Part shown: positions 2,713 through 64,000 of the stretch, piece by piece
Position numbering within the stretch: position 1 is the stretch's first letter
How the letters are laid out: the number at the start of each line of letters is the position of its first letter
Source: Streptomyces reniochalinae
GTDB lineage: Bacteria; Actinomycetota; Actinomycetes; Streptomycetales; Streptomycetaceae
DNA length: 64,000 nucleotides
Reading direction: 5' to 3'
Assembly: GCF_003323735.1 (NCBI RefSeq)
Contig: NZ_QOIM01000036.1
Coordinates: forward strand, 62,001 to 126,000
Notes under the pieces: generated by a model
The model's input: only the letters and a program-made list of their open reading frames with translations
The model's database searches: none
What the model was told of the DNA's origin: nothing
Translations under genes and position numbers: made by a program

Positions 2713-2755
2713 GCTCGCCCCTCCAATGGGTGTCCGCCGTGCACGGCGGCTGACG

Positions 2756-2839
2756 ATCATAGGTACCAACCAATATGGGAAATATTACGAGAGACCTTGT
2801 GTGAAGCCAAGTGGGCTGCAAGATTGGTACCTGCCAATC
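2756..2839. promoter_or_regulatory. Divergent nanR/permease operator region
   Basis: GATTGGTACCTGCCAATC (2822-2839) is an inverted repeat with 6-bp arms. The nonamer TTGGTACCT in it (2824-2832) recurs in inverted orientation at 2761-2769, about 63 bp away. A -10-like TATGAT for nanR lies on the minus strand at 2756-2761, next to the second copy. The arrangement suits binding by the GntR/HutC regulator at two sites about six helical turns apart. Confidence 0.5.
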
Positions 2840-2876
2840 AGGGGGGTGCTCCGAGGATGTCGAGAAGGGACGCGCC

Positions 2877-4280
2877 ATGACGTCACCCAGCTGTACGGCC
2901 GCGCAGCGCGACGGAGCCGCCCTGAGGCCGGTCCTCGGCGTGACACTGGTGGCGGCGCTGGGCGGGCTGCTGTTCGGCTACGACACCGGCGTCATCTCCG
3001 GAGCGCTGCTGGCCATCGAGTCGGACTTCGAGCTGTCCGCCTTCAGCTCAGGCGTCGTCGTCAGCTCCCTCCTGGTCGGCGCGATGGCCGGCGCCGCCGG
3101 CGCGGGTGGTCTCGCCGACCGCCACGGGCGCCGTCCGGTGCTCGTCGCTGCCGCCGCGATCTTCACCGTCGGTGCCGTCCTCGCCGCCCTGGCCCCCTCT
3201 GCGGTGGTTCTCACGGCCGCCCGTGTGGTGCTCGGCCTGGGCATCGGCGTCGCCTCGAACCTGGTCCCGGTCTTCATCGCCGAGCTCGCGCCGCCCCGCT
3301 ACCGGGGACGGCTCGTCGGACTCAACCAGTTGATGATCACCTTCGGTATCGTCCTGGCCTACGTCGCCAACTACGCGCTGGAGAACGTCACCCACAGCTG
3401 GCGGTGGATGTTCGGGCTGGCCGCGCTCCCCGCGCTCCTCTTCGGCATCGGCATGCTGCTACAGCCGGAATCACCGCGCTGGCTGGCGCTCAACAGCGGC
3501 CAGGAACGTGCCCGCGCCGTTCTCGCCCGGCTGCGCGGACACAGCGACACCGCTGCTCTCCAGGCCGAACTGGCCGACATGGCCGCCACCTCCACCACGC
3601 GGGGAAACGGCGCACGCGGTGCGGGACGGTGGCGGGCTCTGACCGCGCGCTCGGTGCGTCCCGCCATCGTGGCAGGGGTCGGGCTGCAAATCCTCGGGCA
3701 GGCGTCCGGCGTCAACACGGTGATCTACTACGCGCCGAAGATATTCCAGAGCAGCGGTCTGGGATCGTCGTCCGCCATCCTGGCAACCGTCGGGGTCGGC
3801 GTCGTGAACCTGCTCATGACGCCCGTCGGGATGGCCGCCGTCGACCGGTTCGGCCGCAAGAAGCTGCTCGCGAGCGGCGCCGCGGTGATGACGGCCGCAC
3901 TCGCCGGACTGGCCGCCACGCTCGCCGCCGGAGGCCAGAACTCCTCCTGCGCCTGGCTGGCCGTCCTGTGCGTCGTCGTCTTCGTCGCCGCGGTGGCCAC
4001 CACACTGAACGTGGTGGTCTTCATCATCCCCTCCGAGCTGTATCCGCAGCGCATCCGCGGTACGGCCATGAGCGCCACGATGTTCTCCAACTGGACGATG
4101 AACTTCGTGGTCTCCCTCACCTTCCTCACCCTGCTCGACGCGCTCGGCGGCCCGAACACCTTCGCCCTCTACGCAGCCGTGTGCGCGCTCCTGACCCTCT
4201 TCGCGATCCGGCGCATCCCCGAGACGCGCGGCAAGAGCCTGGAGGAGATCGAACGCGAACTCGCCTCACGCACGGCCTGA
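2877..4280 (+). CDS. MFS sugar porter, candidate amino-sugar permease
   Basis: A 467-residue, 12-helix proton symporter of the MFS sugar-porter family. Family hallmarks are present: FGYDTGVISGALL in helix 1, DRHGRRPVL after helix 2, PESPRWL before the central loop, DRFGRKK in the second half, and the C-terminal PETRGKSLEEIE. The ATG at 2877 follows a GAAGGGA stretch. It is transcribed divergently from nanR, so it probably imports the ManNAc or related sugar handled by NanK and NanE. This would be an alternative to the TRAP, ABC and SHS-type sialic acid transporters of other bacteria. The substrate is inferred from position only. Confidence 0.85.
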   Translation: MTSPSCTAAQRDGAALRPVLGVTLVAALGGLLFGYDTGVISGALLAIESDFELSAFSSGVVVSSLLVGAMAGAAGAGGLADRHGRRPVLVAAAAIFTVGAVLAALAPSAVVLTAARVVLGLGIGVASNLVPVFIAELAPPRYRGRLVGLNQLMITFGIVLAYVANYALENVTHSWRWMFGLAALPALLFGIGMLLQPESPRWLALNSGQERARAVLARLRGHSDTAALQAELADMAATSTTRGNGARGAGRWRALTARSVRPAIVAGVGLQILGQASGVNTVIYYAPKIFQSSGLGSSSAILATVGVGVVNLLMTPVGMAAVDRFGRKKLLASGAAVMTAALAGLAATLAAGGQNSSCAWLAVLCVVVFVAAVATTLNVVVFIIPSELYPQRIRGTAMSATMFSNWTMNFVVSLTFLTLLDALGGPNTFALYAAVCALLTLFAIRRIPETRGKSLEEIERELASRTA

Positions 4281-4298
4281 GGTGCCCAGCCGGGCAAC

Positions 4299-4324
4299 AC
4301 CCCCTCGACCACGGGCGCGGGGGT
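4299..4324. terminator. Possible bidirectional terminator
   Basis: A short hairpin (arms ACCCCC and GGGGGT) lies in the 43-bp gap between two convergent MFS genes. It has no U-tract, which is usual in high-GC actinobacteria. It could serve both transcripts. Confidence 0.35.
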
Positions 4325-5733
4325 CACGCCGTGGAGGAGGGGTGCACCGCGCCCGGCGCGTCCGAGGACGTGCTCGCCTCCGCCGGCGGCGGGGACGGCG
4401 GACGGGGCGCGGAGCTGCGCGGGCGGCGGGTGCGGGGGCCGAAGACCGCCAGGGCGAGCGCGCCGACGATCCAGGTGCCCGCGATGAACCAGAAGACGCT
4501 CTGGTACCCGGTCCGGTTGTAGAGCGCCGCGATGACCAGGGGGCCCGCCGCGTTGGAGAGCCGGCCGATGCCGTAGGAGATGCCGGTGCCCAGGGCGCGG
4601 CTGCGGGTGTCGAAGAGCTCGGGGGAGTAGGCGTAGGCCAGCGCCGTGTAGCCGCGTTCGAAGAGGTTGACCAGGAACCCGAAGCAGACGATCAGCAGCG
4701 GGTCGAAGGTGAGACCGTACAGCAGCCCGCACCCCGCGATGACCACGGCGAAGGCGGCCAGGCACCACTTGCGTTCGAACCGGTCGGTCACCAGCGCCGC
4801 GAGGTAGGACCCCAGGGGAGCGCCGACGGTCGTGAGCGCCACGTAGAAGACCGACTTCTCGACGCTGATGCCTTCCTTGGCCAGCAGGGTGGGTGCCCAG
4901 CTGGAGTAGCCGAAGAAGCCGATGGTCTGGGTGACCCACAAGACGGTCAGCAGGAGGGTCGGTGCGAGGTACTTCCACCGCAGCAGCAGTCTGAGCGGCG
5001 CCTTGGCGCGGTGGGGCTCGTCGACAGGCGGCCGGGGCGGGGGCAGCGGCCCCTTTTCGGCGGCGACCTGGGTCTCTATCGCGGTGAGCACCGCGTCGGC
5101 ACGCTGGTGGTCGCCCTTGCTCTCCAGCCAGCGCGGCGACTCCTTGAGGTGCCGCGCGAACAGGAGCAGCAGGATGCCGAGCGCGCCCCACAGGTAGACC
5201 AGGCGCCAGGTCCCCTCGCCGAGCGGAACGACGGCGCTGGCGATCAGGTTGGTGACGGGGGTGCCGCAGATGCCGATGACGATGGCGTAGGCCTGGAACT
5301 TGCCGCGGACGGCCGCCGGATACATCTCGTTGACGTAGATGACGGCCACGACGGTCATCGCGGAGAGGCCCGCCGAGGTCAGGACGCGGAAGACACCGAG
5401 CGAGACCAGGTCCCAGGAGAAGACGGCGGCGAAGGAGAAGAGCCCGAAGCCGGCCGTCGTCCACAGCAGCGCGTTCTTGCGCCCCCACCGGTCGGCGAGG
5501 GCCCCGGCGGTGACGGAGCCCACGAACATGCCGACGAAGGAGAGTGAGGTGACGTAGGCGATCTGGTTGACGGTGACGCCCCACAGGTCGATCAGCTTGG
5601 GGGCTGTGGTGGCGAAGCTGTTGATGTCGGCGAACTCGAAGAAGTACGCGAAGGAGACCGCGAGCAGGGTGAGCTTGTGGAACCGGGAGACGGGCAGTCG
5701 ATCCAGCCGGTTCACCGCGTTGGAGTGCTGCAT
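4324..5733 (-). CDS. MFS permease of the pyrone-dicarboxylate operon
   Basis: A 469-residue MFS transporter with 12 predicted helices. Motifs include DRWGRKNALLW after helix 2, a SPRWLESKGDHQRAD central loop and DRFERKW in the second half, as in sugar/aromatic-acid porters. The C-terminal tail is long, rich in Pro and Ser. It is the last gene of an operon for 2-pyrone-4,6-dicarboxylate and 4-oxalomesaconate catabolism, 42 bases after ligI. It is therefore a good candidate importer of pyrone dicarboxylate, gallate or protocatechuate. No extradiol dioxygenase is nearby, which slightly favours uptake of the pyrone itself. Substrate is inference. Confidence 0.82.
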   Translation of the reverse strand: MQHSNAVNRLDRLPVSRFHKLTLLAVSFAYFFEFADINSFATTAPKLIDLWGVTVNQIAYVTSLSFVGMFVGSVTAGALADRWGRKNALLWTTAGFGLFSFAAVFSWDLVSLGVFRVLTSAGLSAMTVVAVIYVNEMYPAAVRGKFQAYAIVIGICGTPVTNLIASAVVPLGEGTWRLVYLWGALGILLLLFARHLKESPRWLESKGDHQRADAVLTAIETQVAAEKGPLPPPRPPVDEPHRAKAPLRLLLRWKYLAPTLLLTVLWVTQTIGFFGYSSWAPTLLAKEGISVEKSVFYVALTTVGAPLGSYLAALVTDRFERKWCLAAFAVVIAGCGLLYGLTFDPLLIVCFGFLVNLFERGYTALAYAYSPELFDTRSRALGTGISYGIGRLSNAAGPLVIAALYNRTGYQSVFWFIAGTWIVGALALAVFGPRTRRPRSSAPRPPSPPPAEASTSSDAPGAVHPSSTA

Positions 5734-52190: not shown

Positions 52191-53054
52191 TCACTTGAGC
52201 CCGGACGTCTTGACGGACTCCACGATCTGCCGCTGGAAGGCGAAGAAGAGGAGCAGCATGGGCAGCGCTGCCACCGTCGCGGCCGCCAGGATGTAGTTCC
52301 AGTTGGATCCGTACTGCGTCTGGAACGAGGCGATGCCCAACTGCACGACCGTCAGGTCCTGGTCGCTGGTGGCGACCAGCGGCCAGACGAAGGCGTTCCA
52401 GTTGGCGAGGAAGAAGAAGATGGCCAGGGCGGAGAGGATCGGCCGGGACATCGGCAAGACGATGTTCCAGTACACCCGCCAGTGGCCGCAGCCGTCCACG
52501 ACCGCCGCCTCTTCCAGCTCCCTGGGCAGTTGGAGGTAGAACTGGCGCAGCAGGAAGATGCCGAAGGCGTTGAAGACGGCCGGGACGATCAGCCCGGCGT
52601 AACTGTCGAGCAGGTGCAGTTGGCGGGCCACCATGAACAGCGGGATCAGGACGACAGGCGGAGTGACCAGCAGCGTCGCGAAGATCGCTCCGAAGAGCTT
52701 GTCGCGCCCCGGGAAGCGCAGCCGCGCCAGCGCGTAGGCGGCCATCGAGTGGAAGAACAGCGCCACCACGGTGATCACCGCCGAGGTGAAGAAGCTGTTC
52801 CACAGGTAGCGCGCGAACGGTACCTCGGTGAAGACGTAGACGAAGTTGTCGAACGTGAAGTCGCGGGGGATCAGATTGCCGTCGGTGACGGTCGTCCTGG
52901 TCTTGAAGGACGAGGTGACCATCCACAGCACCGGGAAGAGGCTGATCAGCGAGACGACGACGGCCAGTACCGTCAGCCCGGTGCGGGAGGACACCGGCCT
53001 TCGCCTGCCGCCCGGTGTGCCGCCCGACCGGGTCGCCACGGTGTCACTCGCCAT
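52191..53054 (-). CDS. Sugar ABC transporter permease, MalG type
   Basis: A 287-residue permease with six membrane helices. The ATPase-coupling EAA loop reads EEAAVVDGCGHWRVYWNIVLP and the C-terminus VESVKTSGLK is typical of MalG-type subunits. Its start overlaps the end of the partner permease by 11 bases. It is the last gene of the GH172-binding protein-permease-permease operon. No ATPase is encoded in this operon. Confidence 0.88.
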   Translation of the reverse strand: MASDTVATRSGGTPGGRRRPVSSRTGLTVLAVVVSLISLFPVLWMVTSSFKTRTTVTDGNLIPRDFTFDNFVYVFTEVPFARYLWNSFFTSAVITVVALFFHSMAAYALARLRFPGRDKLFGAIFATLLVTPPVVLIPLFMVARQLHLLDSYAGLIVPAVFNAFGIFLLRQFYLQLPRELEEAAVVDGCGHWRVYWNIVLPMSRPILSALAIFFFLANWNAFVWPLVATSDQDLTVVQLGIASFQTQYGSNWNYILAAATVAALPMLLLFFAFQRQIVESVKTSGLK

Positions 53055-54012
53055 CGTCGAACCTCCCGCCTCTCGTGACCGTGAAGAGCACCGCCGAGAC
53101 GATGACCATGATCAGCACCAGGAACGAGCCCATGGCCGACGCGTAGCCGTACTCCCCGAAACCGAAGGCCTGTTGGTAGATGTAGAAGATGGCCAGGGAC
53201 GTGCCGTTCGCGGGGCCGCCGTTCGTCAGCACGAAGATCAGGTCGAGACCGCCGGTGAGGGCGGCGACCGTCGACATCAACAGCACGAAGAAACTGGTGG
53301 GGCGCAGCAGCGGCCAGGTGATGGTGCGGAAGGTGGTCCACGGGCCCGCGCCGTCGAGCCGCGCGGCCTCGTAGTACTCCCGGGGAATCTCTTGCAGCCC
53401 CGCCAGGAAAATGATCATGTAGTAGCCCATCATCACCCACACCGTGACGGCGATGACGCAGCCGAGAGCCAGGCCGGGACTGCCCAGCCAGGACGGGCCG
53501 TCGAACCCGGCGGCGCGCATGGCCCGGTTGACCACGCCGGTCTGCTCGTCGAGGAGGAACTTCCACAGCACGCCGACGACGACGAGGCTGATGACGTACG
53601 GCATGAACAGCGCGGTGCGAAAGGCGCCGACCCCCGGCAACCTCTGCTTGACCAGCAGTCCGAGACCGAGACTCACGCAGAACAGCACGGGCACGAGGAT
53701 CACCACGTACAGGCCGGTGATCTTCATGGAGTCCCAGAACAGCGGATCGCCCATCATCCGCCGGTAGTTGCCGAGCCCGATCCACTCGTAGGAGCCGAAG
53801 CCGCTGACCTGGAAGAAGCTCAGCGCGAAGGAGAGCACCATGGGGATCGCGACGAAGACCAGCAGCCCGAGCACGTCGGGCGCCAGGAAGAGCCCGGCGG
53901 CCAGCCACTCGCGGCGTTCGCGGCGCAGGCGCGGTCGCGGGCCCTCCGACGCGCTGGGGGCCCCGGCCGGTGCGGCGGTCTCGCGGCGTTCCGGTACGAC
54001 GACGCCACTCAT
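53044..54012 (-). CDS. Sugar ABC transporter permease, MalF type
   Basis: A 322-residue permease with six helices after a short Pro/Glu/Arg-rich N-terminus. The EAA loop is YEAARLDGAGPWTTFRTITW. The ATG overlaps the binding-protein stop by 4 bases. The subunit pairs with the following MalG-type permease, and MsiK is the likely ATPase, by inference. Confidence 0.88.
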   Translation of the reverse strand: MSGVVVPERRETAAPAGAPSASEGPRPRLRRERREWLAAGLFLAPDVLGLLVFVAIPMVLSFALSFFQVSGFGSYEWIGLGNYRRMMGDPLFWDSMKITGLYVVILVPVLFCVSLGLGLLVKQRLPGVGAFRTALFMPYVISLVVVGVLWKFLLDEQTGVVNRAMRAAGFDGPSWLGSPGLALGCVIAVTVWVMMGYYMIIFLAGLQEIPREYYEAARLDGAGPWTTFRTITWPLLRPTSFFVLLMSTVAALTGGLDLIFVLTNGGPANGTSLAIFYIYQQAFGFGEYGYASAMGSFLVLIMVIVSAVLFTVTRGGRFDDGE

Positions 54013-55385
54013 ATCAGGCTCGCCCCCTTGTAGCTCTCGGTGTAGGCGGCGATGGCCCCGGCGGCTCTCTCCGTCTCGCCTGCCACCCCGCGGTCGGCGA
54101 GCATGGTGCCCTGGATGGCGTCGGAGATCGCCTTGTAGACGACCGGGGGATAGCGCGGCTCACCACGGCCGCCGGGGAAGATCTCGTCCTTGAACCGCCG
54201 CATGACGGCCGAGTCGTAGCCGCCTTTGGCCGCGCCGCGCTCCAGCGCGCTCTCGCGCGGTGCGACATCGGACTTGGCGCCGACACACCAGTCCACCATC
54301 CGGTCCACGGAGTCGTCCTTCATGGATCCCAGTGCCCAGACACAGAACTCGGCCGCGGCCTCGGCGTCGCCGCTGCGGGCGTTGGCGGCGAAGGACCAGC
54401 CGCCCAGTGCGGTGAGGTACCTGCCGCCGGGGGGTACCGGCAGCTTGAAGACCCCGTACTTGAACGCGGGTGCGTACGCCTTGAAGCTCGCCACGTTCCA
54501 GATGCCCTGCTGCCACATGGCGACGTTGCCGCCCTTGAATCCGCCCACGACATCGCCGGCGGCGGGAGGGGTACGCGGTGCGATGCCGTGCCGTACCGCG
54601 TCCTGCCACAGCTGAAGGGCCTGGCGGGTGGCCTTGGAGTCGAAGGCGACCTCGCCGCTCTCGTCCAGGACCTCACCGCCGCCCTGCCACATCCACGGGT
54701 ACCAGGTGAAGTTCTGCAAATAGCCGGGGTTGGTCTCGAAGACGAGTCCGGCCCGGGTCTTGGCGCGCAGCTTGTCGCCGACGTCGAGCATCCGGTCCCA
54801 GCTGGTGGGGATGTCCCCCTCGGACAGGCCGGCCTTCTCCCACACGTCCTGGGCGTAGAACATGGCCAGCGGCTCGACCTCCATGGGGAGGGCGTAGACC
54901 CTGCCGTCGACCTTGCGGCTGTCGAGCGCGGAGCCGAAGTCGTCGACGGCCTCCTTCGCCATGTGCGGCGTCAGGTCGGCCAGCACGCCGCCGTTGTAGT
55001 AGCGCAGGAAGTCGCCGGGGGAGAGGAGGAAGATGTCGGGCCCCTCGCCGGTGGCGAAGGCGGACGGCAGCTTGAAGCTGTTGATGTAGGTGTTCCGCGG
55101 CAGGTAGACGAGGTCGATCTGTGTCTCGTGGGTGGCGTTCCACCGGTCCACGGTGTCGACGAACCACTTCGACTGTGCGTTGACCGCCGGGTCGGGCGAG
55201 CGCTGCGGTCCGTAGAAGTTCCAGAACCGCAGGCGACCCGTGCCGGCGCGGGCCGTACCGCAGCCGGTGAGCAGCGCCGGGGACGCCGCGGCCGCACCGG
55301 CGCCGGCCGTCGCGGTGAGGAATCGGCGGCGGGTGGCCCCGGGGGGTGCGGCCGCACGCTTGGCGGCGGCGCGGTGGTGGAGCAT
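54009..55385 (-). CDS. Sugar-binding lipoprotein with Tat-type signal
   Basis: A 458-residue family 1 solute-binding protein. The N-terminus carries a twin-arginine motif (TRRRFLTAT) followed by lipobox LLTGC, so it is probably folded before export and lipid-anchored. The mature region has LRFWNFYGPQRS, GEGPDIFLLSPGDFLRYY and EPLAMFYAQDVWEKAG as expected for oligosaccharide-binding proteins. It lies between a GH172 hydrolase and two permeases. The ligand is therefore probably an oligosaccharide cleaved by GH172. Confidence 0.87.
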   Translation of the reverse strand: MLHHRAAAKRAAAPPGATRRRFLTATAGAGAAAASPALLTGCGTARAGTGRLRFWNFYGPQRSPDPAVNAQSKWFVDTVDRWNATHETQIDLVYLPRNTYINSFKLPSAFATGEGPDIFLLSPGDFLRYYNGGVLADLTPHMAKEAVDDFGSALDSRKVDGRVYALPMEVEPLAMFYAQDVWEKAGLSEGDIPTSWDRMLDVGDKLRAKTRAGLVFETNPGYLQNFTWYPWMWQGGGEVLDESGEVAFDSKATRQALQLWQDAVRHGIAPRTPPAAGDVVGGFKGGNVAMWQQGIWNVASFKAYAPAFKYGVFKLPVPPGGRYLTALGGWSFAANARSGDAEAAAEFCVWALGSMKDDSVDRMVDWCVGAKSDVAPRESALERGAAKGGYDSAVMRRFKDEIFPGGRGEPRYPPVVYKAISDAIQGTMLADRGVAGETERAAGAIAAYTESYKGASLI

Positions 55386-55422
55386 GCGTGCGCTCCTGTC
55401 GAGGAGTGGGACGGGGTGGGGG

Positions 55423-56517
55423 TCAGTCGACTTCGAGTGCCGTCAGGTCCGGTGTGGCGGGGCGGGACCCGGGGGCGAGGACGGGGGCGTCGAGATAGAA
55501 CAGCGAGGTGCTGGCGATGTCGTCGCTGGTGTGCCGGTAGCGGTGCGGCAGGCCGTTGCCCTGTCCTGGGCCGATGCCGAGGCTCTGCACGGTCACCCGC
55601 AGGTCCGCGCCGAACCTGATGGGGTCCGGGACGTGCCAGCGGTACATCCCGAACCGCTGCTGGCTGCGGTAGAGCCCGTCGGGGCGCAGGATCTGGTTCA
55701 GCCCGAGATACGGGGTGGTGTAGGAGGTGTAGCCCTGGCCGGGGACGTCGAAGTTCCAGGCACCGCCGAAGTAGTCCTCGGTCCCGGTGCCGCAGATCGA
55801 GGGGTACGCGTCGCCGTCGAGGTAGAACTTCAGCTCGCCCTCGCCCCACCACCCCGGGCTGTTGACGCCCCAAGCGAGATAGGTGCCGACATAGCAGCCC
55901 GCGCCCGTCACACCGTCCAGCAGCGTGTGCACGTCGCCGTAGGGCACCGGATGGCTGCGCCGCCACTGGGCGTGGAACCAGGAGGCGTCCTTCTCGACGT
56001 CGCCCGACTCGTAGTCCACCTGGTAGTAGAGGGTGACCTTCTCGGCGCCGAGGTTCTCCAGGGTCAGACGCGCCCGGCGCCGGAAGGGCATCGGCCAGTA
56101 CGCGTTGAAGCCGCCGTTGGGGTTGGCGGCGACGGGAACGGACGAGACCTGGCTGAAGGTGTTCCAGCCGTTGCAGAAGAAGTCACCGAGCGGCACCTCG
56201 ACGGCCGGTTCCTCCTCGCCCTCCCAGTACATCCGCAGCAGGGTGCCGCGCCAGGCCGCGTGCGGGTCGGTGGTGCACCACAGGTGGCGGATGGTGCCGG
56301 GGCCCTCGATGTCGGCGAGCTCCGCGCTGCCGCCCGGCGCGATGTCGATGCTGGGGGAGATCTTCCAGCCAGGGCCCAGCCGCCCTGCCGCCACCGCGCC
56401 GGTGCCTTCCGTGGCACGGCCGCCGCCGGACTTGGCGCCGGTGAAGTTCTCGGCGCTGATGGAACGGCTCACGGCGCGCGTCCTGCGGGTGAGGCCGTCG
56501 AGTCCAAAGGTCGTCAT
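55423..56517 (-). CDS. DUF2961 glycoside hydrolase, GH172
   Basis: A 364-residue protein of DUF2961, now glycoside hydrolase family 172, whose known members act on difructose dianhydride or D-arabinofuranosides. Conserved segments include the GPGTIRHLWCT lid, WGEGELKFYLDGD with its glutamates, and GTGTEDYFGGAWNF, which holds the likely catalytic Glu. No signal peptide is present, so it acts in the cytoplasm on imported sugars. It is the first gene of an ABC operon, and divergent from a fucose-isomerase-like gene. That pairing suggests D-arabinose-containing glycans. Confidence 0.87.
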   Translation of the reverse strand: MTTFGLDGLTRRTRAVSRSISAENFTGAKSGGGRATEGTGAVAAGRLGPGWKISPSIDIAPGGSAELADIEGPGTIRHLWCTTDPHAAWRGTLLRMYWEGEEEPAVEVPLGDFFCNGWNTFSQVSSVPVAANPNGGFNAYWPMPFRRRARLTLENLGAEKVTLYYQVDYESGDVEKDASWFHAQWRRSHPVPYGDVHTLLDGVTGAGCYVGTYLAWGVNSPGWWGEGELKFYLDGDAYPSICGTGTEDYFGGAWNFDVPGQGYTSYTTPYLGLNQILRPDGLYRSQQRFGMYRWHVPDPIRFGADLRVTVQSLGIGPGQGNGLPHRYRHTSDDIASTSLFYLDAPVLAPGSRPATPDLTALEVD

Positions 56518-56621
56518 CGTCTCTTGCCCTCGTGGTGGGGTACGTGGCGCGCGCCGCGGTCTGGGACAGGCACCGTGGGACGCGGGAGAAGCGAGGCGGC
56601 ACCGGTCAGCGGCGCGGACTC

Positions 56622-56777
56622 GTGAAATCCATTTCACCGAAACCTAGAGAGGGCCTCCGAGGGTGTCAAGGGGTGGGCTTCCCAGGCCGTTGAGGACGCG
56701 GATACGGGCGAGTGCGTGGGCCTTTGACCGGGTCAAAGGTCATTGCCGTGCACGCCCTTGACCCTGAAATCGATTTC
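56622..56777. promoter_or_regulatory. Three palindromes in the GH172/isomerase promoter region
   Basis: GTGAAATCCATTTCAC (56622-56637) and GAAATCGATTTC (56766-56777) share the pattern GAAATCSATTTC, typical of LacI-family operators, one near each divergent gene. Between them CCTTTGACCGGGTCAAAGG (56721-56739) is a perfect 9-bp-arm palindrome of unrelated sequence. The 351-bp region has no gene. Two regulators may act here; neither is encoded beside it. Confidence 0.68.
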
Positions 56778-56868
56778 TGCCACTGTCCCAGGTCATGTCG
56801 GGGCCGACTGCCGCCTGTTCCGATCTGCCGACCCGCCCGGGGCCGGAAGTACGACCAACGGAGACCGC

Positions 56869-58503
56869 ATGACCACCTACGCCCTCCCCGAGCCCAGCCG
56901 ACCGCCCGCCGCCGAGCCGCACACCGTCTACACCGTGGCCAGCGGAGACCTGCGCCCCGCCGCCAACGCCACCTGCTGGCCCACCCAGGAGAAACTGGAG
57001 AGCGACCTCGCCGCGGCAGTCACGGGCCTCGGCTGGAACGTGCGCCGGGGCCACAATGTGGACCCGGACAAGGGCCACGGGTTCATCGACAGCCAGCGGG
57101 CGGGGATCGAGGTCTTCAAGCACCTGCCGCCCGAGGCGCCGCTGATCGTCGTCGAGGGCGTCTGGCAGTACAGCCACCACGTGCTGGCCGGACTGCGCAG
57201 CCATCGGGGACCCGTCCTGATCGTCGCCAACTGGAGCGGCGAGTTCCCCGGGCTGGTCGGCCTGCTGAACCTGGCGGGGAGCCTCACCAAGGCGGGGCGC
57301 GACTACGCGGTGCTGTGGAGCGCCGACTTCACCGACGACTGGGCCCGGCAGGGGCTGCGCACCTGGCTGGAGACCGGCACGCTCCGCCACGACACCGGCC
57401 ACGTGCGCCCGCTGCCCCCGCTCCCGCAGGACCCGGAGACGGAACTGGGCGCGGCGCTCGCCCGGCAGCTGCGCCAGGAGAAGGCGATCATCGGCGTCTT
57501 CGACGAGGGCTGCATGGGCATGTACAACGCCATCATCGACGACGAACTCCTCAACCCGCTCGGCGTCTACAAGGAACGCCTGTCCCAGAGCGCCCTGGTC
57601 GCCGAGATGCGGAAGGTGTCAGACGAGGAGGCCCAGCAGGTACGCGACTGGCTCGACCGCGCCGGCATGACGTTCCACACCGGCACGGACGAGGCCACCG
57701 AGCTGACCGACGCGCAGCTGCTCAGCCAGTTCAGGATGTACATAGCCGCGCTGCGGATCGCCGACGACTTCGGGCTCGACGCGGTCGGCATCCAGTACCA
57801 GCAGGGGCTCAAGGACACCGTGCCGGCCAGCGATCTTGCGGAGGGGCTGCTCAACAACGTCGAGCGCCCGGCCGTACGCAGCAGGGACGGCTCCCGCGAG
57901 CTGTACCCGGGCGTGCCCCTGCCGCACTTCAACGAGGTGGACGAGGGCGTCGCCGTCGACTCGCTGGTCACCAACCGCCTCTGGACGGCGATGGGCCTCG
58001 ACCCGGCCACCACGCTGCACGACATCAGGTGGGGCGAGGAGTACGAGGGCCGGTTCGTGTGGGTCTTCGAGATCTCCGGCTCGGTGCCCGCCTCCCACAA
58101 CGGCGGCTACGACAAGTCGTACAGCATGCGGCAGCCCCCGATGTTCTTCCCGCTCGGCGGCGGCACCCTCAGCGGCGTCTCCAAGCCGGGCGAGATCGTC
58201 TGGTCCCGGGTCTTCGTGATGGACGGCCGCCTCCACGTCGACCTCGGCCGCGGCACGTCGGTCGAGCTGCCGCCGGAGGAGACCCGGCGGCGGCTGGACG
58301 CCACCAATCCGCAGTGGCCGATCATGCACGCCGTGCTGCACGGCGTCAGCCGCGACCAGTTCATGGCCCGGCACCGCGCCAACCACCTCAACGTGGCCTA
58401 CGGAGCGGACGCGGACACCGCCGACAGGGCGCTGCGCGCCAAGGCGGCGCTCTTCGCCGAGCTGGGGGTCGAGGTGCATCTGTGCGGCGACGTGCGGTGG
58501 TGA
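56869..58503 (+). CDS. L-fucose/L-arabinose isomerase-like protein
   Basis: A 544-residue member of the FucI/AraA-like isomerase superfamily, which interconverts aldoses and ketoses with a divalent metal. Recognisable segments include [20 protein letters not shown], the central [11 protein letters not shown], and a C-terminal [15 protein letters not shown] with the conserved metal-region histidines. FucI also isomerises D-arabinose to D-ribulose. The ATG at 56869 follows CGGAG. Its position opposite a GH172 gene, with shared palindromes, makes D-arabinose a reasonable substrate. This specificity is inferred. Confidence 0.78.
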
Positions 58504-58623: not shown

Positions 58624-59319
58624 TCAGGCGCTGGTCCCGGCTGCCAGCTGCTCCCGCAGACGCTCCAGCGCCGCGGGCACGTCGTCGGCCTCGGCCAGCT
58701 CCCTGCCGATGCTCACGGTGAAGGCACCGGCGGCCAGCCAGTCGGCGGCGGTCTCCATCCGCACCCCGCCGGTCGCCATGATCCGGGCGCCCGGCAGTAC
58801 CGAGCGCAGGGAGCGCAGATACGCGGTGCCGCCCACATGCGCGGGGAAGAGCTTGGCGACGCCGCGCAGAGCGGCCGCCCGCAGCTCCGTCGGGCTGTGC
58901 CCGCCCTCGACGAACAGCCGGTCGGCCGCGTCCGCCACAGGCCGCACCTCGGGGACCTGGAAGGGGCTGACCAGGAAGTGGGCACCGGCCTCCAGCGCCG
59001 ACTCGGCGACGGCCGCCGAGGTGACGGTACCCAGCCCCAGCAGAACCGCGGACTCCTGCCGCGTCCACCGGGTGACCAGTCCCTGCCAGCCGGGTGTGGT
59101 CGCGGTGAACTCGAAGGCACGCACGCCCGCCTCCCACAACGTCCCCGCCAGCCGGTCGGCGCTCTCCGCGTCGTGGGCCCGCACGGTCGGTACGATCCGC
59201 GCCGTCTCCAGCCGGTCGATGACCGACCGCAGGGCGGGGGACAGATGGGCGGTGGAGCCGAGGTCCACGACGGGCTCGCCCTGGGTGCCGGGCGCCGCCG
59301 GCCGACGGGCGGCGCTCAT
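58624..59319 (-). CDS. KDPG/KHG-type aldolase (DgaF/Eda-like)
   Basis: A 231-residue class I aldolase of the Eda family. The Schiff-base lysine is in GVAKLFPAHVGG and the catalytic Glu in VRAFEFTATTPG; ARIMATGGVRMETAADWLAAG is the phosphate-binding end. Such enzymes release pyruvate from 2-keto-3-deoxy-6-phosphosugar acids. The ATG overlaps the HPr stop by 4 bases. Together with a DgaE-like ammonia-lyase two genes upstream it matches the DgaE/DgaF pair that degrades D-glucosaminate-6-phosphate in Salmonella. It is the last gene of the right-hand operon. Confidence 0.85.
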   Translation of the reverse strand: MSAARRPAAPGTQGEPVVDLGSTAHLSPALRSVIDRLETARIVPTVRAHDAESADRLAGTLWEAGVRAFEFTATTPGWQGLVTRWTRQESAVLLGLGTVTSAAVAESALEAGAHFLVSPFQVPEVRPVADAADRLFVEGGHSPTELRAAALRGVAKLFPAHVGGTAYLRSLRSVLPGARIMATGGVRMETAADWLAAGAFTVSIGRELAEADDVPAALERLREQLAAGTSA

Positions 59320-59591
59320 GCGGGGGCCGCGATACGGACGAGGGTCTCCAGCGCGCTGTCCGCGTCGTCTCCGCTGGCCCGCAGCACGATCTCGTCGCCG
59401 CAGCGGATGTTCAGCGTCATGAGCGACAGCACGCTGTGCGCCGGGACGCCGGCCGCCTGTGGCCCGGCGTCCGCGCGGGCGACGGTCACCTCGGCCGCCG
59501 CCTGGGCGGCCGCCTGGGCGAAGGCCGCCGCGGGGCGGGCGTGCAGGCCTGCCGCTTCGGTGACCTTGAGGCGTCGTTCGACCGTCATCAC
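59316..59591 (-). CDS. HPr-family phosphocarrier protein
   Basis: A 91-residue HPr-like protein. The active-site histidine lies in the canonical GLHARPAAAF motif, and the regulatory serine region reads AHSVLSLMTLNIRCGDEI. The GTG at 59591 follows AAGGAGA. Its presence inside an operon with PRD, SFCGS and DUF4310/4311/4312 genes suggests a dedicated PTS phosphotransfer chain. Streptomyces have a general HPr elsewhere, so this would be an additional, system-specific carrier. A 157-base gap separates it from the PLP-enzyme gene. Confidence 0.85.
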   Translation of the reverse strand: MMTVERRLKVTEAAGLHARPAAAFAQAAAQAAAEVTVARADAGPQAAGVPAHSVLSLMTLNIRCGDEIVLRASGDDADSALETLVRIAAPA

Positions 59592-59748
59592 GGGATGATC
59601 TCCTTGCGTGCGTAGGTGTCTTGTGCGGCGGGGCAGTGCGTGCGCGGGGGTGGCCGCTGAGGCGGCCGAGCACGGTGAGCAGGCGCGGTTCGGTGGAAGC
59701 CGGCGCGGGAGAGCCGGGGTCGGCGGGGGCAGTGCGGGTCAGCGGGGG

Positions 59749-60918
59749 TCAGTTCGGCGGTGCGGCACCGAGCAGCTCCCTCAGCCGGCGCACCACCGCC
59801 TCCTCTTCCTCCGGTGTCAGACACCGCGGGTCCACGGCCAGGCGGCCCGAGCCCGCGTGGTGGTCGCGGAGGAATACCGGGGGGCTGCCGGCGGCGAGTT
59901 CGGCCGCCAGCCCGGTCGCGTCCCGGCCCGCGCCTACCGGATCGACCAGCAGTTGTGCACGGTGGATGTCGCGGCCCGCCTCGTCGGGCACGACGCGGGC
60001 CGTGATGCCGGGCAGCGCGTCCAGCCGGACGGCCAGCCGTGCCATCCGGTCGTGGTGGCCGCCCTGGCCGCTCCGGCCGACCTGACCGCCGTCGGAGGGC
60101 GCGGCGTGCTCCCGCACCGCTCGCACCAGCCCGAGCACCGTCTCCTTGCCGACCTTCATCGGCCGGCCGATGCCGGCGTACTGGGCCCGGCAGGCGGCGA
60201 CCAGTGCCGCGGATCCGCAGACGAGACCCGACGTCGGGCCGCCGAGAGCCTTGCCACCGCTGAAGACGACCAGGTCGGCGCCGGTGGAGGTCCAGGCCCG
60301 CGGGTCCTCCTCCGCCGCGGCGTCGACGATCACGGGTACCCCGTGCTCCCGGCCCACCGCGACCACCTCGGCGAGGGACGGCATGCCCTTGTGCACCGCG
60401 TGGTGCGACTGGACGTACATCAGCGCCGCCGTGCGCTCCCCGACCGCCGCGGCGAGGTGCGCGGCGCGCACCTTGTTGGCCGAGCCGACCTCGACGGGCC
60501 TGCCGCCGCCGAGGGCGATCATCTGCCGGACAGGGGCCCCGAAGTGCACCGCGTGCCCCTTGGGCAGGACGACCTCGTGGGGCCGGCCGCCCGGATCGGG
60601 CAGCGCCTCGATCCTGGCCAGGTCCTCGCCCGCGATCAGCGCGGCGACGGCCAGTGCGATACCGGAAGCGGCGCCCGTGGTCGCACAGACGTCCTCGCTG
60701 CCCGTCGCCGCCGCCAGGTCGCGGCCCGCGGCCACGAGCAGCTCGTCCATGACCACGTGGCTGCGTGCGGCCTCGGCCATCGCCGCGATCACCCCGTCGC
60801 TGAGTCTGCTGCCGCCGAGCGCGGTCATCTTGCCGTTGCCGTTGAGGGCGGGGGCCAGGCCCAGTTCCTCGTACAGGGAGGACGGGGGAGCGGGGGTGGG
60901 GGAGAGGGAGTCGGTCAT
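59749..60918 (-). CDS. SelA-like PLP enzyme, D-glucosaminate-6-phosphate ammonia-lyase type
   Basis: A 389-residue fold-type I PLP enzyme of the SelA/DgaE-like family. Conserved features are GLAPALNGNGKMTALGGSRL near the N-terminus, the cofactor-binding CATTGAASGIALAVA, VIVDAAAEEDP, and the Schiff-base lysine in VVFSGGKALGGPTSGLVCG. DgaE converts D-glucosaminate-6-P to 2-keto-3-deoxygluconate-6-P plus ammonia; the aldolase downstream would cleave that product. The ATG follows GGAGAAAGG. In the Enterococcus version of this cluster a similar PLP enzyme is present, with unproven substrate. Confidence 0.83.
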   Translation of the reverse strand: MTDSLSPTPAPPSSLYEELGLAPALNGNGKMTALGGSRLSDGVIAAMAEAARSHVVMDELLVAAGRDLAAATGSEDVCATTGAASGIALAVAALIAGEDLARIEALPDPGGRPHEVVLPKGHAVHFGAPVRQMIALGGGRPVEVGSANKVRAAHLAAAVGERTAALMYVQSHHAVHKGMPSLAEVVAVGREHGVPVIVDAAAEEDPRAWTSTGADLVVFSGGKALGGPTSGLVCGSAALVAACRAQYAGIGRPMKVGKETVLGLVRAVREHAAPSDGGQVGRSGQGGHHDRMARLAVRLDALPGITARVVPDEAGRDIHRAQLLVDPVGAGRDATGLAAELAAGSPPVFLRDHHAGSGRLAVDPRCLTPEEEEAVVRRLRELLGAAPPN

Positions 60919-60950
60919 GGTGCCTTTCTCCGCTGTCGTGACGGGGGAGT

Positions 60951-61694
60951 TCACTTGCCGGTGAGGGGGAAGAACAGGCCGAAGAGCATCGCGCCGAGAA
61001 TGGCGCCGCCGGTCAGCGGCTTCTTCCACCAGTAGAAGAGCAGCGCGCCCAGGGTGGAGCCGAGCCCCACGGGGATGGAGGCGGTCGCGGCGGCGATGAT
61101 GACCAGGGGGCCCAGATACCGGCCCGCCGAGTTGCCCGCGCCCATCATCACGTCGGCGCCGAAGGTGGAGGTGTTCTGGGACGAGTTGACGGTCGCGCGG
61201 CGGATCAGCAGAATCACGCAGCCGATCGCGAAACCGACCGCCGCGCCGGTGGGCAGCGCCAGCCAGAAGTGCTCCAGGGGTGCGGTGACGCCGCCCGCCA
61301 GCAGCATGGCGGGGATTCCGATGCCCACCCCGGTCTGCAGGGAACCGCCGATGTCGAGGATGCCCACCATCGGGCCCTCGATGACGCGGGCGAAGAGGAA
61401 TCCCGCGCCGAAGGCGGCCGCGGCACCGTAACTCCCGTTCTCCATACCGCCTTTGAGGAGGGCGGTGACCGCGACGTCGCTGAAGGTGCCGGTGCGGTAG
61501 ACGTAGTAGAGGTGTGTGCCGGTGAAGATACCCGCCGCGAGGGTGGCCACGAAGAGCGGGAAGGCCCACTCCGAGAGCCAGAAGCTGCCCTCGCCGGGCG
61601 CCTTGGCGCCGTCCGGCGTGGTGGCGGGGGTGCGCTGCGCGCCGGAGGCGGCGGTCGCCGCGCCGGGAGTCGCGCCGGATTCCGCGTGCGCCAT
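60951..61694 (-). CDS. DUF4310 membrane protein
   Basis: A 247-residue integral membrane protein, about seven helices after a Gly/Ala-rich cytoplasmic N-terminus of about 40 residues. Segments such as AFGAGFLFARVIEGPMVG, LDIGGSLQTGVGIGIPAML and TFGADVMMGAGNSAGRYLGP match the DUF4310 family, known only from the conserved cluster around E. faecalis EF_0833. Its layout resembles a PTS EIIC/EIID-type membrane subunit, but homology is not established. The ATG at 61694 follows CAGGAG. It is 17 bases downstream of the DUF4311 gene. Confidence 0.82.
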   Translation of the reverse strand: MAHAESGATPGAATAASGAQRTPATTPDGAKAPGEGSFWLSEWAFPLFVATLAAGIFTGTHLYYVYRTGTFSDVAVTALLKGGMENGSYGAAAAFGAGFLFARVIEGPMVGILDIGGSLQTGVGIGIPAMLLAGGVTAPLEHFWLALPTGAAVGFAIGCVILLIRRATVNSSQNTSTFGADVMMGAGNSAGRYLGPLVIIAAATASIPVGLGSTLGALLFYWWKKPLTGGAILGAMLFGLFFPLTGK

Positions 61695-61711
61695 GCCTGT
61701 GCTCCTGCCTC

Positions 61712-62503
61712 TCAGTCCGTCGGGGTGGTGCCGGTCGCGTCGTGGAATCGGCTCAGCCAGTGCGGTACGTCGACCTTCATCTGCTGGAGCAGTTGGATGT
61801 CCACCCCGCGCAGCAGGGCGCTCACCGCGAAGAGGGCCACGACGGCGCCCACCAGCACCCGCGTCACCCGGGTGCGCCCCAGGTCGTCCAGGGCCTTGCC
61901 GACGACGATGCCGAGCACGATCCCGGGGACGGCGTTGCCCATCACGACATGCGCCAGGCCGCCCAGGGCGCTGCCCCAGCCACCGGTGCGCCGCCCCGCG
62001 TCCACGGCCGCCATCCAGAACACGATGGGCATCACGGGGTTGATCAGCCACTCGGACGCGGGCCCCAGCACCTCGGCCGCGACCTTCTGCAACGAGTGCG
62101 GGATCGAGGCCGCCGTGGTGTTGAGCACCGAGACCAGGACGAGGCCCACGCCCGCGCCGAAGAACGCCATGCGCCGGGGGTTGTGGAGCGTCTCGGCGAG
62201 GTTGCGGTTGCGGGTCATGGACAGCGCGGCCGCCCAGTGCGGCACGATGCGGTGGTCCACGTCGGAGGTCAGCGCGCCGGTGCCGACCGCGCTGGCCCAG
62301 GCGTTGAAGAAGAACCCGAAGCCGAAGGAGAAGTGCGCCACCGGGTCGTTCTCGCAGGCGTTCAGCTCGCCCAGTGTCCGGAACGCGCCCATGCCCTGCA
62401 CCTTGGGCGCGTGGAACATGCGGGCCACCCCGGCGGAGGCGCCGAAGCCGATGAGCGCGCCGATGACCATGGACTCCAGCAGGATGGTGAGGGTCTCGTT
62501 CAC
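61712..62503 (-). CDS. DUF4311 membrane protein
   Basis: A 263-residue integral membrane protein with about six or seven helices. The hydrophilic segment VQGMGAFRTLGELNACENDP and the later RNRNLAETLHNPRRMAFFGA are characteristic of DUF4311 (EF_0832-type), found only beside DUF4310 and SFCGS genes. It probably forms the transport channel with DUF4310. The start is a GTG at 62503. It is 7 bases from the DUF4312 stop, so the genes are tightly coupled. Confidence 0.82.
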   Translation of the reverse strand: MNETLTILLESMVIGALIGFGASAGVARMFHAPKVQGMGAFRTLGELNACENDPVAHFSFGFGFFFNAWASAVGTGALTSDVDHRIVPHWAAALSMTRNRNLAETLHNPRRMAFFGAGVGLVLVSVLNTTAASIPHSLQKVAAEVLGPASEWLINPVMPIVFWMAAVDAGRRTGGWGSALGGLAHVVMGNAVPGIVLGIVVGKALDDLGRTRVTRVLVGAVVALFAVSALLRGVDIQLLQQMKVDVPHWLSRFHDATGTTPTD

Positions 62504-62510
62504 GGCCGTC

Positions 62511-62846
62511 TCACCTCATGCGCAGCGCGTGCTGGAGCGGGGTCAGCCGCTCCTCGCGCACGGTGAAGTCGACCGCGTCCAGGTCCAGTGCCGCGACCCG
62601 CACCTCCATCCGGAGCGTCAGCGAGAAGCGGGACCTGGTGCGGGCGAACAGCAGGCCGAGGAAGCGCTCCCGCCAGCGGTGCTCGACGGCCTCGACGACT
62701 TCCAGATCCACCGGCTCCACGCGGAAGCACACGCCGGTGGTGCGCTCGCCCGCGGCCTGCCGCACCCGGGCCATGGCGTCGGCGAACGCCTTGTCGCGCG
62801 TCGGGCCCGTGCCGGTGAGCCGCAGGATGTGCCGGGTGTGCTTCAT
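62511..62846 (-). CDS. DUF4312 protein
   Basis: A 111-residue soluble protein of the EF_0831/DUF4312 type. The N-terminus KHTRHILRLTGTGPTRDKAF and the central VEAVEHRWRERFLGLLFART are recognisable. No membrane segment. Its start overlaps the SFCGS gene by 4 bases. A cytoplasmic component of the transport complex is the simplest role, analogous to a PTS EIIB or EIIA domain, though no fold evidence is visible. Confidence 0.82.
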   Translation of the reverse strand: MKHTRHILRLTGTGPTRDKAFADAMARVRQAAGERTTGVCFRVEPVDLEVVEAVEHRWRERFLGLLFARTRSRFSLTLRMEVRVAALDLDAVDFTVREERLTPLQHALRMR

Positions 62847-63208
62847 GCCGACTCCCCCAGCTTCCGCAGCAGCGCCTCGGTGACCGCGTAGCCCAGCTCC
62901 TCGCTGTCCAGGAACCCGAAGCCGAGGACGGTGCGGCCCTGCTCGACCGCCGTGACGCCCGCCTGGGCCGTGCGCATCCCGAACTCGATGTCGTGGCCGT
63001 ACTTGGCCTTCGCCGTCACCGCGCCGGCCCCGCCGCTGCCGCAGAAGGAGATGCCGAGTGCGGCGCCTTCCGCGGCCATGACGTCCCCGACCTTCATGTC
63101 GGCGCCGGGTCCCGGGATCAGCACGGGTTCGGCGCCCGCGGCCCTCACCCCGTCGGCGACGGCCTGTCCTTTGCCCAGCCGGTGCCCGATCACGATTTTG
63201 ACGCTCAT
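62843..63208 (-). CDS. Glycine-rich SFCGS family protein
   Basis: A 121-residue soluble protein of the SFCGS family (EF_0830 type). The diagnostic ISFCGSGGAGAVTAKAKYGH motif spans residues 53-72, with a cysteine that could be a phosphorylation or thiol site, as in PTS EIIB domains. Starts MSVKIVIGHRLGKGQAVADG, which recalls an EIIB-like alpha/beta fold. The ATG follows AGGAGA. It sits between the PRD gene and DUF4312 in an order I recall from the Enterococcus and Aeromonas clusters. Confidence 0.85.
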   Translation of the reverse strand: MSVKIVIGHRLGKGQAVADGVRAAGAEPVLIPGPGADMKVGDVMAAEGAALGISFCGSGGAGAVTAKAKYGHDIEFGMRTAQAGVTAVEQGRTVLGFGFLDSEELGYAVTEALLRKLGESA

Positions 63209-63226
63209 GTGTGTCTCCTGGTCTCT

Positions 63227-63628
63227 TCAGTGGGTCTCGGAAGCGGACGCGTGCGCCACCTCGAAGTGCAGCGCGAACAGCAGGACCTCGCTGTCGGGCG
63301 GGGTGAAGGAGCGGGGCGCGCAGTAGGCGTCGACGAGCCGCCTGGCCGCGGTCAGCCGTGCGCTGGGCACTTCCTCGTAGAGGAGGCCGTCGAGTTCCGG
63401 CAGGCTCTCGCGGTCGCGGACCCGTCTGACGAAGGCCAGCGAGTGCACGGCGAGGGCCAGCAGCCTCTCGTCGTCCAGGCGCACCTCCTCCTGCCGGGCG
63501 TGCGAGAGGATCAGCGGGAGCAGCTCGTCGAGTTCGGCGCGGTCCTGGGCGCCGACGGGTGTGGTGTCGGCGACGTTGGCCGCCAGCCGCTCCAGTACCT
63601 CGGCGGCGCGCCGGGGGGCGGGGGTCAT
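63227..63628 (-). CDS. PRD-domain protein (EF_0829 type)
   Basis: A 133-residue all-helical protein with a single PTS regulation domain (VRLDDERLLALAVHSLAFVR, FALHFEVAHAS), lacking any DNA-binding part. Stand-alone PRD proteins of this size are known from the same uncharacterised cluster. The conserved histidines (LAVHS, ALHFE) are candidates for phosphorylation by HPr. The ATG follows GGGAGGAG and overlaps the amidohydrolase stop by 4 bases. PRDs are rare in Streptomyces. Confidence 0.78.
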   Translation of the reverse strand: MTPAPRRAAEVLERLAANVADTTPVGAQDRAELDELLPLILSHARQEEVRLDDERLLALAVHSLAFVRRVRDRESLPELDGLLYEEVPSARLTAARRLVDAYCAPRSFTPPDSEVLLFALHFEVAHASASETH

Positions 63629-64000
63629 ACCGTCTCCTCCCGGTGGCTGACCGGGTGGGGCCGGCCCGCGACGACGGAGCCGCGCGGCAGGAGGACGCGG
63701 TCCCCCTCGTACTGCTCGCCGTCCGCGTCGGTGAGCGCCAGCGGACCGTCACGCAGCTCCAGCAGGCTCAGGTCCGCGAGCGCGCCGGGACGCAGGGTGC
63801 CCAGGTCGCCCCCGGCTCCGAGCACCCGGGCCGCTCGCGAGGTCGCGCAGGCCAGCACCTCGGTGAGCGGCATCCCCAGCGCCAGCAGTTTGCTCAGCGT
63901 CTCGGTGAGCGAGTGCACGGGGCCGTGCGTGTTGCGGTTGTGCAGGTCGGTGCCGGCCGTCCAGGGCCTGATTCCGGCGGCCAGGGCCCGCCTGGCCGTG
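63625..64000 (-). CDS. Amidohydrolase, C-terminal part, cut by window edge
   Basis: The last 124 codons of an amidohydrolase; the N-terminus with its metal-binding HxH lies beyond the right edge. The visible part has the family's TAGTDLHNRNTHGP motif (with the catalytic/metal Asp), followed by the TETLSKLLALGMPLTEVLAC helix and the GTLRPGALADLSLL C-terminal strand. It resembles the EF_0837-type amidohydrolases of the same cluster, related to dihydroorotases and deacetylases. It may remove an acyl group or open a ring before the PLP enzyme acts. Confidence 0.82.
   Translation of the reverse strand, partial: TARRALAAGIRPWTAGTDLHNRNTHGPVHSLTETLSKLLALGMPLTEVLACATSRAARVLGAGGDLGTLRPGALADLSLLELRDGPLALTDADGEQYEGDRVLLPRGSVVAGRPHPVSHREETV

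Follow-up and report, generated by a model that had tools for sequence, protein, structure and literature searches.

The stretch analysed here, referred to below as the window, comprises 64,000 nucleotides of a Streptomyces reniochalinae contig (G000:C55:62001-126000) from a genome of 7.69 Mb, and its right-hand end holds the operon that is the subject of this work. Nine genes lie there on the minus strand, running from window-equivalent position 64767 to 58624 (58624-64000 inside the window), in the 5' to 3' order amidohydrolase, PRD protein, SFCGS protein, DUF4312, DUF4311, DUF4310, DgaE-like lyase, HPr and KDPG aldolase. The original prediction, made from the letters of the window, had named nine co-directional genes beginning with a partial amidohydrolase; all nine are present, and rightward extension of the sequence gives a complete amidohydrolase gene of 380 amino acids that continues to C55:126767 (window-equivalent 64767). 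Its description of the genes as mostly overlapping was overstated, as 4-nt overlaps occur at three of the eight junctions, the remaining ones being gaps of 7-160 nt. The nine reading frames are all intact, and a divergent IclR gene, starting at 64846, bounds the operon. Since genes in this order are found again in other phyla, the arrangement is not due to chance; the nine genes are one operon, a real, variant form of a known but uncharacterised kind.

The family assignments of the original prediction held in hidden Markov model (HMM) scans. The SFCGS protein (62843..63208; TIGR03577/PF14272) scores 158.5 bits over a TIGR03577 cut-off of 141.1, the DUF4311 membrane protein (61712..62503, GTG start) 374.8 bits over 301.1 for TIGR03580, and the DUF4310 membrane protein (60951..61694) 310.0 bits over 215.5 for TIGR03579. 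The small DUF4312 protein (62511..62846), without a strong hydrophobic segment, stays below its TIGR cut-off (72.2 against 89.7 bits) and above that of Pfam PF14189 (67.9 against 27). The stand-alone PRD protein (63227..63628; TIGR03582 family) reaches 33.5 bits, below the cut-off of 69.4, and its own sequence alone matches Pfam PRD with an E value of only 0.2; 59 of 62 aligned family members match that domain (E values up to 10 allowed; best 1.1e-9). Thus, three core families pass their curated cut-offs and the other two are recognisable and in order, as in clusters of the EF_0829-0839 type. As for the enzymes, the amidohydrolase/deacetylase of the cog3964 type (63625..64000 within the window) passes NF006689 with 402.6 bits against 371 and misses TIGR03583 (325.6 against 432.2), and the DgaE/SelA-like lyase (59749..60918) exceeds TIGR01437 (395.8 against 385.3). 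HPr (59316..59588; 70.5 bits, TIGR01003 cut-off 47.9) carries the motifs GLHARP and HSVLSLM, which we take to be the active-site histidine and the Ser-46 region. The KDPG/KHG-type aldolase (58624..59319) matches Pfam PF01081 (91.4 bits against 27.8) and lies below the cut-offs of all nine NCBIfam models that it matched.

We found a DUF4311 protein above cut-off in one of 61 relatives and in one of 396 sampled Actinobacteria, in both cases the genome studied here. Among GTDB species genomes there are at least 529 confirmed stretches with DUF4311 relatives; the best 80, corresponding to 79 distinct loci, were kept, so that the set leans to close relatives. It consists mostly of Bacillota, with 13 Actinobacteria and some Pseudomonadota. 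The cluster also occurs on plasmid records of Bartonella, Enterococcus, Klebsiella and Aeromonas (six found, four opened). Gene counts refer to 84 loci, i.e., the 79, locus L009 and four of the six plasmid records, and they are lower bounds, because the loci span at most 10 kb per side, some being shorter, and genes overlapped by a better-scoring match were dropped (e.g., DUF4310 of L026, visible separately). The best match among those listed belongs to Streptomyces diacarni (L016), with a DUF4311 protein 99% identical. Phylogenetically, the 14 actinobacterial rows (Streptomyces, Microbacteriaceae, Amycolatopsis) of a 38-row DUF4311 tree form one side of a branch with support 100/99. For alignments, the sequences were thinned to 75 of 84 for SFCGS, 63 of 80 for DUF4312, 60 of 77 for DUF4310, 63 of 85 for DUF4311 and 62 of 76 for PRD.

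DUF4312 and DUF4311 are present at all 84 loci, SFCGS at 83, DUF4310 at 81, the amidohydrolase at 79, DgaE at 78 and the PRD gene at 78 in a tblastn search, to which inspection by eye adds L039. At four loci (L031, L081, L082, L094) a BglG-PRD-SFCGS-DUF4312-DUF4311-DUF4310 block occurs with neither amidohydrolase nor DgaE in the approximately 20 kb fetched; PRD-SFCGS-DUF4312-DUF4311-DUF4310 is thus a separate unit. Other parts are exchanged between lineages. The DgaF-type aldolase was found at 61 loci, none of them among the 14 actinobacterial ones, while the PF01081 type was found at ten of these 14 and one other. The aldolase of this operon is of the PF01081 KDPG type and replaces the unrelated DgaF of most non-actinobacterial clusters. 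BglG-type regulators accompany 66 of the 84 loci, none of the 14 actinobacterial ones among them, and IclR genes 11, all actinobacterial. In Aeromonas caviae the cluster is cut (L014 8938-10343), the start of DUF4310 being joined to the end of the DgaF aldolase, with no amidohydrolase or DgaE. Brevibacillus daliensis (L035) carries tandem copies, at 1823-5531 and from 5802 on, and neither a PRD nor a DgaE gene was detected in the first of them. A weak PF14188 match in another genome (G298, L011) was dropped, since by eye it is a prepilin-peptidase-like open reading frame.

A connection of the cluster to the phosphoenolpyruvate (PEP) phosphotransferase system (PTS) is strongly supported by gene context. 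We detected HPr at 35 loci, namely all 14 actinobacterial ones, 20 of Bacillota (Paenibacillus, Brevibacillus and relatives) and that of Bartonella; this count includes L026, with HPr at the contig end, and excludes L014, where the match lies on the other strand. An operon-specific HPr, which had been considered unusual, is therefore the rule in actinobacteria. Nine of the 14 actinobacterial HPr are separate genes, and five (L017, L019, L024, L025, L039) are fused to the C-terminus of DgaE, the HPr domain giving Pfam E values of 2.6e-19 to 1.1e-21 beside SelA. To our knowledge, such fusions have not been described before. They are scattered over the actinobacterial part of the DUF4311 tree, and fusion or fission therefore seems to have occurred more than once. 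Enzyme I (EI) is encoded at ten loci, nine recognised by motif and L052 by BLAST. In the plasmid cluster of Bartonella, HPr and EI are fused, and the BglG-type regulator combines PRDs with an EIIA_2 domain (one regulator scanned). Genetic coupling to HPr and EI, as expected of a PTS enzyme II, is thus observed. The genome itself contains two HPr genes, one of them in the operon, and one EI. EI was present in all 50 cluster-bearing genomes searched (out of those of the 79 loci) compared with 73 of 198 sampled Actinobacteria, a comparison confounded by kinship, since the seven listed genomes of the same genus, besides our own, all have EI. A cluster in an EI-less genome, which would contradict a PTS connection, was seen in none of the 50. 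The PRD gene is retained at all 14 actinobacterial loci, 13 of them detected by tblastn and L039 recognised by eye. His62 and His121 of the PRD protein are invariant in 62 aligned relatives and align, weakly (E 0.0068), with histidines of a BglG-type PRD; the paired phosphorylatable histidines of PRD domains are accordingly present.

The SFCGS protein was found to resemble sugar-phosphate isomerases. Its model, built from 70 sequences (mean predicted local distance difference test score, pLDDT, 93.7), has RpiB/LacAB structures as top matches, with a Foldseek E value of 2.8e-4 and VIA Z up to 12.2 (root-mean-square deviation 3.4, 118 aligned residues); every VIA entry from rank 1 to rank 22 is of the RpiB/LacAB type, and the next row has Z 8.3. 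Among 75 SFCGS members, with Pfam E values up to 10, LacAB_rpiB was matched by 36 (best 5.7e-5) and DUF2620 by 35 (best 0.0047); the protein of this operon is in neither group. The SFCGS profile matches a profile of 27 RpiB sequences (hhalign E 5.9e-5, probability 65%) and a seven-sequence DUF2620 profile (E 1.8e-5), which in turn matches RpiB (E 1.1e-4); a comparison with the single sequence of the DUF2620 protein YhfU gave no match (E 0.32). Homology of SFCGS and RpiB is moderately supported at this level. Cys56, situated in an FCGSGGAG loop, is invariant in the 75 sequences and aligns with the catalytic cysteine of RpiB, so that fold, cysteine and glycine-rich loop are all shared. The model, the profile and the invariant cysteine point to membership of SFCGS in the RpiB/LacAB isomerase superfamily with other isomerase residues lost. 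A phosphocysteine carrier would likewise require the part that SFCGS keeps, a cysteine followed by a glycine-rich loop. Relatedness to PTS components was probed directly. The comparison of the predicted structure with PTS EIIA and EIIB, proposed earlier, yielded no match and RpiB-like proteins instead: PTS_IIB is not among the 14 Pfam families of the 75 members (E up to 10), and no EIIB is among the best 50 of 1064 Foldseek matches (E up to 10) or the 50 VIA entries listed. A comparison of the SFCGS profile with SrlE was likewise negative.

As to the remaining core proteins, the DUF4311 model (59 sequences, pLDDT 84.6, predicted template modelling score 0.74) is all-helical, and its best matches in the PDB (Foldseek E 1.9, VIA Z 4.2) are not convincing, which does not in itself establish a new fold. 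Strong hydropathy segments counted by window are only four in DUF4311 and only three in DUF4310, which does not fix the number of membrane passes. We rejected several candidate relationships: DUF4310 and DUF4311 as glucitol EIIC (no match to SrlA or SrlE) and DUF4312 as an SrlB-like EIIA (no match), all five comparisons by profile against single sequence and not very sensitive, and DUF4310 and DUF4311 as relatives of each other. DUF2232 is weakly matched by 43 of 63 DUF4311 members (best E 0.0014), which are not independent, and we made no use of this match. No histidine or cysteine is invariant among 63 aligned DUF4312 sequences, which makes a phosphocarrier role of this protein unlikely.

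The lyase gives the clearest indication of chemistry. An alignment with Salmonella DGL (7lc0/7lce) extends over the length of DgaE and shows a conserved lysine, presumably that binding pyridoxal phosphate. DgaE retains the His162/His163 pair and Arg301/332/346 of DGL (its own Arg320, Arg351 and Arg365, counted from the alignment), for which excerpts of PMC9529869 describe the roles of the histidines and a phosphate cluster formed by the arginines. The active site is DGL-like as judged by these residues, and since both the pair and the phosphate-cluster arginines are kept, DgaE should use a phosphorylated substrate. The 2-amino-2-deoxy sugar acid of the original prediction, in phosphorylated form, therefore finds residue-level support as the DgaE substrate in the likeness to the Salmonella enzyme. 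In turn, the amidohydrolase aligns over nearly its full length with 8wzy, 2ogj and 2ics and shares with them HxH, Lys, His, His and Asp positions that we take to be metal ligands; a signal peptide was not seen by eye, no signal-peptide test having been made. For EF0839 of Enterococcus faecalis, the excerpted literature offers amino sugar metabolism only as a guess, together with some transposon sequencing signal (PMC7701990).

Taken together, these observations are explained best, in our view with about even confidence, by phosphotransfer-coupled import of an N-acylated 2-amino-2-deoxy sugar acid, followed by its breakdown. This reading builds on features recognisable in the sequences: gene content, conserved residues, the connection to HPr and EI, the RpiB-like SFCGS and the DGL-like site of DgaE. 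The PRD-SFCGS-DUF4312-DUF4311-DUF4310 core would constitute a PTS-linked importer. Phosphate from PEP would pass through the single EI of the cell to the HPr of the operon, from there to His62/His121 of the stand-alone PRD protein and to Cys56 of SFCGS, and would end on the substrate during its entry through DUF4310/DUF4311. In the cytosol, the amidohydrolase would free the amine, elimination of ammonia by DgaE would yield a 2-keto-3-deoxy acid 6-phosphate, and the latter would be split by the KDPG aldolase into pyruvate and a triose phosphate. We infer here transport itself, the order of phosphotransfer and the chemical nature of both acyl group and sugar acid, and the PRD protein or HPr may have regulatory roles alongside import.

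Several observations weigh against this reading. No recognisable EIIA, EIIB or EIIC domain was found: the five core proteins matched no EII family in a Pfam scan at E 0.001, nor did their aligned members with E values up to 10, where for three sets 25 of 31, 36 and 66 families were listed. SFCGS is folded like an isomerase family, its homology to RpiB is only moderately supported by sequence, and the DUF4311 model has no convincing match to any solved structure in Foldseek or VIA. HPr was not seen at 49 of the 84 loci, the EI comparison is burdened by kinship, and an aldolase of either type was missing from four of the 14 actinobacterial loci (L018, L024, L025, L039). Moreover, a separate PTS IIC gene lies nearby at seven loci and a sugar kinase at six, and these could supply the phosphate there. 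Of the earlier proposal of a phosphotransferase-type importer, the PTS link stands, with HPr or EI beside many clusters, the EIIA_2- and PRD-containing Bartonella regulator and EI in all 50 cluster-bearing genomes searched, while SFCGS as EIIA or EIIB does not.

The clustered PTS genes could also serve regulation only. HPr, EI and the PRD protein would then be confined to control, DUF4310/4311 would form an ordinary secondary transporter, a kinase encoded elsewhere would phosphorylate the substrate in the cell, and phosphorylation of the PRD protein would switch the transporter or a regulator. PRDs are regulatory in known systems, as stated in excerpts of PMC4987338, and the BglG-type regulators at most non-actinobacterial loci, the EIIA_2 domain in that of Bartonella, the kinase genes beside six loci and the failure to see an EII family among those listed for the core proteins all fit such an arrangement. 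Yet actinobacteria keep the PRD gene where no BglG-type regulator was found, they keep HPr, even fused to the ammonia-lyase, and no kinase was found in the operon by NCBIfam and Pfam HMM scans of its proteins. We regard regulation alone as possible but doubtful.

We hold similar doubts about a second alternative, by which the operon serves a substrate other than an N-acyl amino sugar acid, with the amidohydrolase removing an ester or other group and DgaE acting on another phosphorylated 2-amino acid. The nearest solved amidohydrolases bear inconsistent names (dihydroorotase, adenine deaminase, amidase), the nearest solved relative of DgaE, 8t7j, is named a putative selenocysteine synthase and differs in the histidine pair, and DgaE itself falls below the DGL equivalog model (349.3 against 600). 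Against this, the active-site match of DgaE with DGL and the presence of a KDPG-type aldolase fit the conversion of an amino-aldonate phosphate to a keto-deoxy acid phosphate.

It is unlikely, in turn, that SFCGS is an active enzyme of the RpiB superfamily, isomerising or epimerising sugar phosphates as an extra catabolic step, and no phosphocarrier. Such a function would be in keeping with the fold match and with the retained catalytic cysteine and glycine-rich loop. However, alignments of SFCGS, like those of DUF2620, show no counterparts of the Asp-His pair, of His99/Asn100 or of the C-terminal arginines of RpiB, and excerpts of PMC3755991 report that D8A and H9A essentially inactivate LacAB, with Cys65 as the proposed base; SFCGS also accompanies the membrane genes even at loci devoid of the enzyme genes. 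Finally, that the cluster is a decaying, functionless acquisition, as its rarity among relatives might suggest, is hardly credible given nine intact frames, retained catalytic residues and actinobacterial copies that form one supported group.

Near the operon end, an open reading frame of 586 amino acids (56743-58503, plus strand) faces it; with 29.0 bits against a cut-off of 29.3, its product weakly resembles L-fucose isomerase in the C-terminal domain of the latter. Further downstream, on the minus strand at 53044-56637, genes for an ABC sugar permease, a solute-binding protein and a DUF2961 protein probably represent a separate sugar-use locus.

As of its June 2026 release, NCBIfam lists four core families simply as conserved hypothetical protein and the remaining one as PRD domain protein, and we found no literature on the SFCGS, DUF4310, DUF4311 and DUF4312 families among PMC papers under CC0, CC BY or CC BY-SA. 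Should the core prove to be an importer, a further class of amino sugar acid transport would be added for Bacillota, Pseudomonadota and Actinomycetota. Descent from RpiB, as suggested for SFCGS and DUF2620, would join two uncharacterised operons, one of them in Escherichia coli K-12, and the HPr-DgaE fusions would physically couple the PTS to a catabolic enzyme.

Among known systems, the operon is closest in content to the EF_0829-EF_0839/AHA_3910-3915 cluster (TIGR03577-TIGR03583), whose function is unproven and with which it shares the five-gene core, the amidohydrolase and DgaE. It differs by a PF01081 KDPG aldolase in place of the DgaF (KDGP) aldolase EF_0839, by an internal HPr, by a divergent IclR gene instead of a BglG-type regulator, and by the amidohydrolase at the front of the operon, whereas there it lies behind DUF4310. 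With the Salmonella Dga system (dgaABCDEF), which handles D-glucosaminate through a mannose-family PTS, DGL and DgaF, it has in common a DgaE-type lyase with a matching active site and the expectation of a phosphorylated amino sugar acid, as far as the excerpts of PMC9529869 and PMC4987338 describe it; in contrast to Dga, it lacks EII genes of the mannose family, relies on another, proposed importer, and has a deacylase in addition and a different aldolase. Compared with the RpiB/LacAB isomerases (PF02502), SFCGS has the same fold, cysteine and glycine-rich loop without the other active-site residues named above.

The E. coli K-12 yhf operon (L130 8033-13423), annotated as uncharacterised or putative, encodes a stand-alone PRD protein (YhfY), a DUF2620 protein (YhfU) and a membrane protein (YhfT). 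YhfY matches our PRD profile (hhalign E 6.7e-6), and an RpiB-like cysteine protein stands beside a membrane protein in both systems, while the enzymes differ and profile comparisons of YhfT with DUF4310 and DUF4311 gave no match; the idea that YhfT is a fusion of DUF4311 and DUF4310 was dropped when a single-sequence hint (E 0.0029) vanished with a seven-sequence profile. The same PRD, DUF2620 and YhfT trio is found in S. diacarni (L136), and our own genome has YhfT beside an RpiB-like DUF2620 protein (C33:71089-72381 and flanks, L137). We tentatively propose that PRD-SFCGS-DUF4312-DUF4311-DUF4310 and the yhf PRD-DUF2620-YhfT set represent an undescribed class of PEP-dependent importers, in which a former RpiB-type isomerase, reduced to its catalytic cysteine and an anion-binding loop, would act as an EIIB-like phosphocysteine carrier and the PRD protein as an EIIA-like one, HPr being fused in some actinobacteria to the lyase that uses the phosphorylated product. 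A PRD protein paired with an RpiB-like cysteine protein thus recurs with different membrane partners, no relationship of YhfT to DUF4310/4311 having been detected.

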